From: Halothiobacillaceae bacterium
Lineage (GTDB): Bacteria; Pseudomonadota; Gammaproteobacteria; Halothiobacillales; Halothiobacillaceae
Length of the DNA stretch: 35,563 bases
Assembly: GCA_006212015.1 (NCBI GenBank)
Contig: SDAY01000009.1
Span: 1-35,563 of the forward strand
Reading direction: 5' to 3'
The notes under the pieces are model-generated. The model was given only the letters and a program-made list of their open reading frames with translations, ran no database searches and was not told the origin of the DNA. This document shows, in pieces, positions 21,409-23,872 of this stretch; position 1 is the first letter of the stretch, and the number at the start of each line of letters is the position of its first letter. Both the position numbers and the translations under genes were made by a program.

Positions 21409-22664
<1,256 letters not shown>

Positions 22665-22685
22665 GCCCAATCGATCAGCCCCGGC

Positions 22686-23111
22686 TCAGCGCGGGCAGAT
22701 CTCGTCAGCCTTGAAGAAGAACTCGGCTTCGATCTTCGCGTTCTCCAGGCTGTCGGAACCGTGCACGGCGTTGGCGTCGATGCTGTCGGCGAAGTCGGCG
22801 CGGATGGTGCCCGGCTCGGCCTTCTTCGGATCGGTGGCGCCCATCAGGTCGCGGTTCTTGATGACGGCATCCTCGCCTTCCAGGAGCTGGACCATGACCG
22901 GGCCGGAGATCATGAAGCTGACCAGATCACCGAAGAACGGGCGTTCCCTGTGCACGGCGTAGAAGCCTTCGGCCTGCTCCTTGCTCATGTGCATCATCTT
23001 GGCGGCGATGATCTTCAGGCCGGCGTTCTCGAAACGGCTGTAGATGGCGCCGATCACGTTCTTGGCAACGGCATCCGGCTTGATGATGGAAATGGTGCGC
23101 TCGATGGCCAT
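22686..23111 (-). CDS. ndk: Nucleoside-diphosphate kinase
   Basis: This 141-residue enzyme transfers phosphate between nucleoside di- and triphosphates. It has the family start [15 protein letters not shown] and the active-site NAVHGSDS with phospho-acceptor His117. The length equals the usual bacterial size. The frame is open upstream, but ATG at 23111 begins the conserved region and has CTGGAG before it. A 100-bp palindromic element lies just upstream, between the predicted promoter and the start. It is the first gene of the ndk-rlmN-pilW-rodZ-ispG-hisS run. Confidence 0.97.
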
Positions 23112-23150
23112 GGTCTTGAAACTCCAGAAGGATGGGTAAGGAAAATTGCA

Positions 23151-23250
23151 GGACTTGCGCAAAAATGTTCCAGCAAGGCAAAGCACCGAAGACAGTACAC
23201 CCAGTACGGCGAGGTGCTTGAACGCCGCTGGGGCGGTTTTGCGCAAGTCC
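23151..23250. repeat. 100-bp MITE/REP-like palindromic element in the ndk leader
   Basis: Perfect 14-bp terminal inverted repeats, GGACTTGCGCAAAA (23151-23164) and TTTTGCGCAAGTCC (23237-23250), enclose a centre that is itself an imperfect palindrome: CCAGC/GCTGG, AAGCACC/GGTGCTT and GTAC on each side. It has no coding capacity. The size and ends fit a non-autonomous transposon-like or REP-type element. It lies 39 bases upstream of the ndk ATG. Confidence 0.8.
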
Positions 23251-23265
23251 CAACTTGAACAGGGC

Positions 23266-23294
23266 ATTGTATGCGGGTTCAAGTGCCTGATAAA
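23266..23294 (-). promoter_or_regulatory. Predicted sigma70 promoter for ndk
   Basis: Read on the minus strand, TTTATC (23289-23294) and TACAAT (23266-23271) are separated by 17 bases. Transcription would start near 23259, just before the palindromic element, so the element would be in the ndk 5' leader. The -35 box is weak; the -10 is good. It lies downstream of the iscX stop (23337). Confidence 0.4.
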
Positions 23295-23336
23295 GGGAAC
23301 CTATAAAGGGAGCATAGGGGAGGCCAGCCCCGCCCT

Positions 23337-23531
23337 TCAATCGCGCTCTTCAAGCCAGGCCATCTGGATGGCCTCGAGGATCTTCTCGCTGGACGTGCCG
23401 GCCTCGCCCTCGAACTCCGGCAGGGCCAGCACCCAGGCATGCAGGTCGGTGAAGCGCACCCACTGCGGGTCGACGTCCGGATGCGCCTCGTTCAGCGCGA
23501 TGGCGATGTCGAGCGTGTCGGTCCAGTTCAT
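23337..23531 (-). CDS. iscX: Fe-S cluster assembly protein IscX
   Basis: This 64-residue acidic protein has the IscX pattern: WTDTLDIAIAL, HPDVDP, VRFTDLHAWV and a C-terminal SSEKILEAIQMAWLEE. In E. coli IscX binds IscS and iron and modulates cysteine desulfurase. ATG at 23531 is chosen; an in-frame TTG at 23537 overlapping the fdx stop is possible. It is the last gene of the isc operon. Its usual partner IscS is not encoded in this operon, which makes its presence noteworthy. Confidence 0.93.
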   Translation of the reverse strand: MNWTDTLDIAIALNEAHPDVDPQWVRFTDLHAWVLALPEFEGEAGTSSEKILEAIQMAWLEERD

Positions 23532-23533
23532 CT

Positions 23534-23872
23534 TCAATGACCCTCGGAGGCAAGGTTGATGGTGTACCTGGGGATTTCGACCACCAGGTCCTTGTCATCC
23601 ACCACGGCCTGGCAGGACAGGCGCGAGTCCGGGTCCAGGCCCCAGGCCTTGTCGAGCATGTCGTCCTCGCATTCGGACGGCGGCGCCAGGCTCTCGCCGC
23701 CCTCGCGCACCCACACATGGCAGGTGGTGCAGGCGCAGGACTTCTCGCAGGCGTGCTCGATGTCGATGCCATGCGCGAGCGCGGCATCGAGGAGGGTGAC
23801 GCCCGGCTCGGCCTCGATCACCATGCCCTCGGGGCAGTAGCGTTCGTTCGGCAGGACGATGATGCGTGGCAT
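23534..23872 (-). CDS. fdx: ISC-system [2Fe-2S] ferredoxin
   Basis: This 112-residue adrenodoxin-type ferredoxin has cluster ligands Cys42, Cys48, Cys51 (ACEKSCACTTC) and Cys87 (RLSCQA), the same numbers as in E. coli Fdx. It supplies electrons for Fe-S cluster formation on scaffold proteins. It starts 3 bases after the hscA stop and abuts iscX, so it is co-transcribed with the chaperone genes. Confidence 0.96.
   Translation of the reverse strand: MPRIIVLPNERYCPEGMVIEAEPGVTLLDAALAHGIDIEHACEKSCACTTCHVWVREGGESLAPPSECEDDMLDKAWGLDPDSRLSCQAVVDDKDLVVEIPRYTINLASEGH

Follow-up and report, generated by a model that had tools for sequence, protein, structure and literature searches.

ERIC and REP-type palindromes are intergenic and can be transcribed, and the palindrome described here, from the leader of the nucleoside-diphosphate kinase gene ndk in a Halothiobacillaceae genome, differs from them in having IS701-type ends and 5-bp target duplications. 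Correia elements, which are MITEs of Neisseria, have ends and a mobiliser unlike those of the ndk-leader family. They resemble it in being short palindromic MITEs present in many copies, and a review (PMC10969869), which also covers ERIC, describes a Correia element just downstream of the mtrCDE promoter that affects the mtrCDE operon and whose transcript is cleaved by RNase III. QMITE1 and QMITE2 of Coxiella are likewise Gammaproteobacterial MITEs with stable transcript folds, and both promoters and sRNAs have been reported for them (PMC5896051; PMC10969869). QMITE2 differs from the 104-bp ndk MITE with its 5-bp duplication in being 150–190 bp long and having direct repeats of 7–11 nt.

With respect to its ends, the family is matched by insertion sequences of the NF049921 group of the IS701 family, two of which (L286 and L291) carry the family's 16-bp end on both sides, while ISPlag1 (L294) carries its outer 13 bases, with T or C first. 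These IS701-family copies are about 1.1–1.4 kb long and encode a transposase, whereas the MITE has 104 bp, no gene and a folded core. The element at ndk is of an ordinary, already known kind, a MITE, and its location in a leader has precedents; the folded core of the family is unusually well conserved.

The element at ndk

Within the window (the whole 35,563-nucleotide stretch that was analysed), ndk occupies 22686..23111 on the minus strand. An earlier note had described a 100-bp MITE-like palindrome with 14-bp perfect terminal repeats at 23151–23250, 39 bases from the start codon, and both the palindrome and its distance from the ATG at 23111 are real. Over the outer 14 bp the inverted repeats are perfect (23151–23164 and 23237–23250), the 24-nt arms (23151–23174 and 23227–23250) are 83% complementary, and the exact 14-bp end is present at just those two sites in the entire window. 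The fold is far beyond chance both for RNA (23112–23262, minus strand, z = −4.75) and for DNA (23151–23250, z = −5.9), and in neither case was any of 200 shuffles as good. The proposed size needs correction: the terminal repeat of the family extends two bases further on each side (YA...TR), with the 5-bp duplication outside them, which makes the true element 104 bp long (23149..23252, strand-neutral, CAGGACTTGCGCAAAA ... TTTTGCGCAAGTCCCA, two tip bases per side included).

The two copies of the target duplication, also strand-neutral, read AATTG on the left (23144..23148) and ACTTG on the right (23253..23257), a match of 4/5. At this copy the tips are CA and CA, which do not pair with each other, so that the ends match at 14 of 16 positions; the combination is found in 3 of 117 family placements, the right tip of the family being mostly TR. 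The copy also deviates from the family consensus at position 7 of both 14-bp ends.

Judged by its sequence, the ndk-leader palindrome is a MITE, i.e. a non-autonomous derivative of an insertion sequence. It is short, with terminal inverted repeats and no gene of its own, and the MITE-like nature suggested earlier is borne out by its multiple copies and by ends and a target duplication common to autonomous insertion sequences. That it might instead be a non-mobile structure, made by the host as a leader hairpin or representing a REP or terminator palindrome, would suit the leader position and the strong hairpin, but is extremely improbable given the many copies with target duplications, the empty ndk sites in relatives and the ends held in common with IS701-family elements.

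The ndk promoter and empty sites in the genus

The predicted promoter upstream of the element is the single match in a promoter scan of 22600–23600 (shuffle mean 0.1). It lies on the minus strand at 23266..23293, with the −35 hexamer TTATCA at 23293–23288 and the −10 hexamer TACAAT at 23271–23266. Farther upstream is an IscX-like gene (23337..23531, minus strand; PF04384, Fe-S assembly), and the frame upstream of ndk resembles iscX in each of the five genomes of the genus (G000, our own, to G004; all drafts). The minus-strand run after ndk comprises rlmN, pilW, a rodZ-like gene (below the model's cut-off), ispG and hisS, in agreement with the multigene run, including rlmN, ispG and hisS, that the note had placed behind the element.

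In the other four genomes of the genus (G001–G004) ndk is present and the element is absent from that site, which provides the comparison with element-free relatives that had been proposed as a check. These genomes have the same −10, the sequence CATACAATGC being invariant in 5 of 5 genomes including our own, and the element was therefore inserted downstream of an existing promoter. When the element and one copy of the duplication are removed, our own leader aligns with that of G001 across the junction, and the emptied leader aligns with those of G001–G004. Because the promoter upstream of the element has an invariant −10 and four congeners are element-free, a transcription start between 23150 and 23112, which would leave the element outside the transcript, appears unlikely. 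The start would be expected near 23259, 7 bases past the −10, with about 7 bases of RNA ahead of the element, which should then be part of the ndk leader transcript.

Across the Halothiobacillaceae, 26 of 27 genomes have ndk. Searching up to 600 bases upstream of these 26 loci, and allowing at most three mismatches per end, we found paired ends at our own locus only, and a lone end match with three mismatches at one other (L054); 14 of the 26 loci were additionally inspected by eye.

Copies in the genus and beyond

Our own draft genome (2.39 Mb, 227 contigs) has two credible copies among the ten places listed, namely that at ndk and a shortened one on another contig (C82:3373–3457, E = 5.9e-19); the remaining eight reflect the ends matching themselves or matching by chance. 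At E ≤ 0.001, 7 of 96 genomes match (own included), among them three congeners with at least nine matches each, 86–95% identical to the window copy. Genomic copies, sought at the suggestion of the note, are thus found both in the genome itself and in its congeners. Exact 14-bp ends (GGACTTRCGCAAAA) number 3, 0, 77, 64 and 20 in G000–G004 respectively, against 0 in each for a reversed control. In G003, 36 copies were placed within the 40 regions examined, and the loci are unrelated to each other. About ten of these 36 (L097, L109, L110, L114, L115, L118, L119, L125, L128 and L132) have the outermost bases of one end missing or altered; in five of them the remainder is identical to the consensus and unrelated DNA starts after GCGTAA or nearby.

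Named genomes scanned for the two ends at a spacing of 60–85 bases yielded at least 118 stretches. The hosts among the matches listed are Halothiobacillus-like MAGs, Undibacterium, other Burkholderiales, Rhodoferax, Glaciimonas and Collimonas, together with cyanobacteria and a few others in which the ends are as in the family and the interiors unrelated. The cyanobacterial elements (e.g. at L179, L180, L195 and L228) are each about 88–113 bp long as a whole, and their right tip is often TG. The exact 16-base end occurs in 8 (own included) of 369 sampled Gammaproteobacteria.

Among the collected loci, 112 of 125 distinct sequences of 92–108 bp align to the window core above a score that we set ourselves. 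By a crude ORF caller, and counting one place for each, 105 of these 112 distinct copies lie outside ORFs; the same 112, with the same caller, revealed no rule of orientation or placement relative to genes. A DNA search of a plasmid collection returned no match. One structured copy with intact ends lies on a viral contig (L285, IMGVR_UViG_3300027835_000056, 2100–2199). Text searches of the literature with ggacttacgcaaa and shorter fragments found no description of the family among the titles listed, sequences often being printed in figures, and none was found on inverted-repeat transposable elements of Halothiobacillus; this is a weak indication that the MITE family is undescribed.

Ends, target duplications and the probable mobiliser

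When 185 flanked elements are pooled, the two bases that adjoin GGAC prove to be YA in most left ends and TR in most right ends. Beyond these bases, 51.9% of the elements have a complete 5-bp direct repeat, compared with 0.7% of shuffles. Within the 112 structured copies the duplication matches at 5/5 in 57 and at 4/5 in 25 (shuffles 0.7% and 4.3% respectively), so that 82 of 112 match at 4/5 or better. An IS630/mariner origin, first suggested by the flanking TA, was rejected, the duplication being 5 bp outside YA/TR and not a 2-bp TA. The 30 PF13358 loci examined for an IS630-type parent, taken from 5 of 15 genomes, are without such an end pair.

In a Gammaproteobacterium (G058), a 97-bp sequence recurs at four of the contig ends. 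This sequence, matched in 2 of 42 genomes of the same order (G058 included), led to a parent in another genome (L286, in G429). This is an insertion sequence of 1096 bp with TAGGACTTACGCAAAA at both ends (16 bp), an exact 5-bp duplication (CATAT) and a transposase that scores 408 bits on NF049921 (transpos_IS701_2; cut-off 250) and carries the Pfam domain DDE_Tnp_1. A second such element (L291), on the Paraburkholderia plasmid pBN3, is 1122 bp long with TAGGACTTACGCAAAA at both ends, the duplication ACCTC and a transposase of 412 bits on the same model. Matching transposase ends, the remaining check of this kind in the note, are therefore found on elements of the IS701 family. Copies in Nostoc, Nodularia, Gloeocapsopsis and Planktothrix (ISPlag1) have the outer 13 bases of the end, with T or C first; the end of ISPlag1 (L294) is CAGGACTTACGCA. 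A 5-bp target duplication is seen at L286, L291, L293 and L294.

The presence of the transposase in the same genome is not strictly required of a MITE. An IS701-type transposase protein query matched 2 of 96 relatives and 0 of 27 genomes in the window's family. With the NF049921 model, 3 of 29 genomes searched were above the cut-off, none of them in the genus, and 1 of 14 control genomes passed; within the genus there was no match in G000–G003, and G004 reached 23.7 bits. Seeking the parent among wide end pairs in the collected loci returned only MITE pairs or host genes. One copy-bearing MAG (G441) has a full transposase (400 bits) with one exact end and one with two mismatches, and no visible duplication. 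Several copies and a transposase also occur together in a 2.6-Mb MAG titled Klebsiella pneumoniae, a name that its size renders doubtful (CAMAPQ01; L167, L170, L178, L192, L193, L205 and L216). From the shared ends we infer that an IS701-type transposase moved the element in trans. Since G000–G004 have no IS701_2 match above the cut-off, the mobiliser would have been lost from the genus, would lie in unassembled DNA, or would have come and gone.

A conserved folded core

Inside the terminal repeats lies a conserved folded core (23165..23236), which reads GAAGACAGTAC on the plus strand, the one that folds more stably in the majority of the family, and whose inner arms are at 23180–23187 and 23213–23220. 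Copies with the shared core are Beta- and Gammaproteobacterial. Two sets of copies, both chosen in ways that favour those fitting the motif and both compared with shuffles that ignore relatedness, indicate that the inner arms covary: in 43 distinct arm pairs (from 81 of 118 sequences, 16 unparsed and 21 with other arm lengths being left out) 244 of 344 cells are Watson–Crick pairs, where re-pairing the arms gives 176 (sd 6; no more than 197 in any of 2000), and in 39 aligned copies, length-matched and thinned and with the structure set by hand, the paired share of inner cells is 88.0%, compared with 81.7% (sd 0.6) after shuffling and no more than 47.8% in slid versions. The same 39 copies have 64 double-change cells against 22.7 shuffled and a covariation of 0.288 against 0.169, while their complementary strand pairs at just 73.8% of inner cells. 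This signal is apparent only with hand-set arms. RNAalifold on an automatic alignment of 57 copies found three double-change pairs for one strand and a single such pair for its complement, recovering little covariation because the inner arms are misaligned there.

Of 112 distinct copies, 105 fold better as the GAAGACAGTAC strand and 6 as its complement. On the GAAGACAGTAC strand G.T outnumbers A.C by 29 to 3, an excess that must be read against the 44 to 22 already present in shuffled arms.

Together, the covarying arms, the G.T excess, the poorer pairing of the complement and the constant strand argue for a core that is a strand-specific functional RNA or single-stranded DNA module, carried by the MITE family and kept by selection, which by chance lies antisense at ndk. 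We put this forward tentatively, as possible but more doubtful than not. The copies share descent, so that polarity can be inherited, and the shuffles take no account of relatedness; shuffled arms have a G.T excess of their own; no gene-orientation rule was seen; and automatic alignments yielded little covariation. Rfam likewise gave no match at E ≤ 1 in 22600–23600; for eight loci it returned a tRNA and a V_AS5 match of 44.7 bits, under the gathering score of 96, and both lie away from the copies. The more far-reaching proposal, in which the core of about 100 bp is such a module on IS701 ends across Beta- and Gammaproteobacteria, its fold kept by compensatory changes and persistent G.U, and the MITE a mobile structured-RNA cassette that sits antisense in the ndk leader, is in our judgement more doubtful again.

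Covariation might also arise from the correction of quasi-palindromes, i.e. template switching in hairpins, with no selection on the fold. The perfect outer repeats and the many near-perfect stems are as this process would leave them. It should tend to produce perfect palindromes, however, and G.U is instead the commonest standard pair at alignment columns 15/88, 16/87, 18/85 and 19/84 in copies from Beta- and Gammaproteobacteria; we regard it as an unlikely source of the signal.

The same 16-bp ends extend from Halothiobacillaceae to Undibacterium and cyanobacteria, and the family is plentiful in genomes that yielded no matching transposase; covariation and a preferred strand are seen in its interior, a part for which a transposase should have no need. 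The family offers a clean case for asking whether the core of a MITE is a selected RNA.

Probable effect on ndk

For the ndk locus itself, we are confident of the following reading, although several of its steps rest on prediction. A non-autonomous transposon with IS701-family ends landed in the ndk leader, about 7 bases downstream of the expected start, and 5 bp of target were duplicated. Its movement was presumably catalysed in trans by a DDE transposase of the IS701 type, which searches of this lineage did not find. The element would now be transcribed within the ndk mRNA, which would open with a hairpin, the element part alone contributing about −50 kcal/mol. The strand transcribed at ndk folds at −50.1 kcal/mol against −55.5 for the other, so that the weaker strand is the one present in the mRNA. 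The insertion was probably near neutral and tolerated as such, because the Shine-Dalgarno is predicted to be equally accessible with and without the element (0.53 and 0.51 respectively) and because ispG and hisS lie downstream. Full termination in the leader would presumably be costly to the rlmN–hisS genes unless internal promoters exist. Any effect would be at most modest and exerted via RNA stability, through protection of the 5′ end or through RNase III cutting as in Correia elements.

A regulatory role of the element at ndk is possible. In its stronger form, with the hairpin a working regulator under selection (an attenuator, an RNase III processing site or a stabiliser of the mRNA), it draws on the long hairpin right behind the expected start and on the Correia element in mtrCDE transcripts, which are cut by RNase III (PMC10969869). 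The ndk copy also differs from the G003 consensus at six positions, and four of these changes compensate each other two by two (7/94 and 35/65); since similar variants are present in other copies, these pairs may predate the insertion. The only terminator candidate is weak, with 0.6 expected by chance, and the predicted fold has some of the U residues that follow the stem pairing with flanking sequence. The element is present at only this one of the 26 ndk loci examined. We consider selection for such a regulator improbable and favour the near-neutral insertion.

At the second copy in our own genome (L069, G000:C82, 3373–3457), the duplication is TCCTT on both sides, or AAGGA on the gene strand. 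The bases duplicated at this insertion seem to be the Shine-Dalgarno of an ArsS radical SAM gene (TIGR04167, 457.6 bits), the ATG of which follows 7 bases on.
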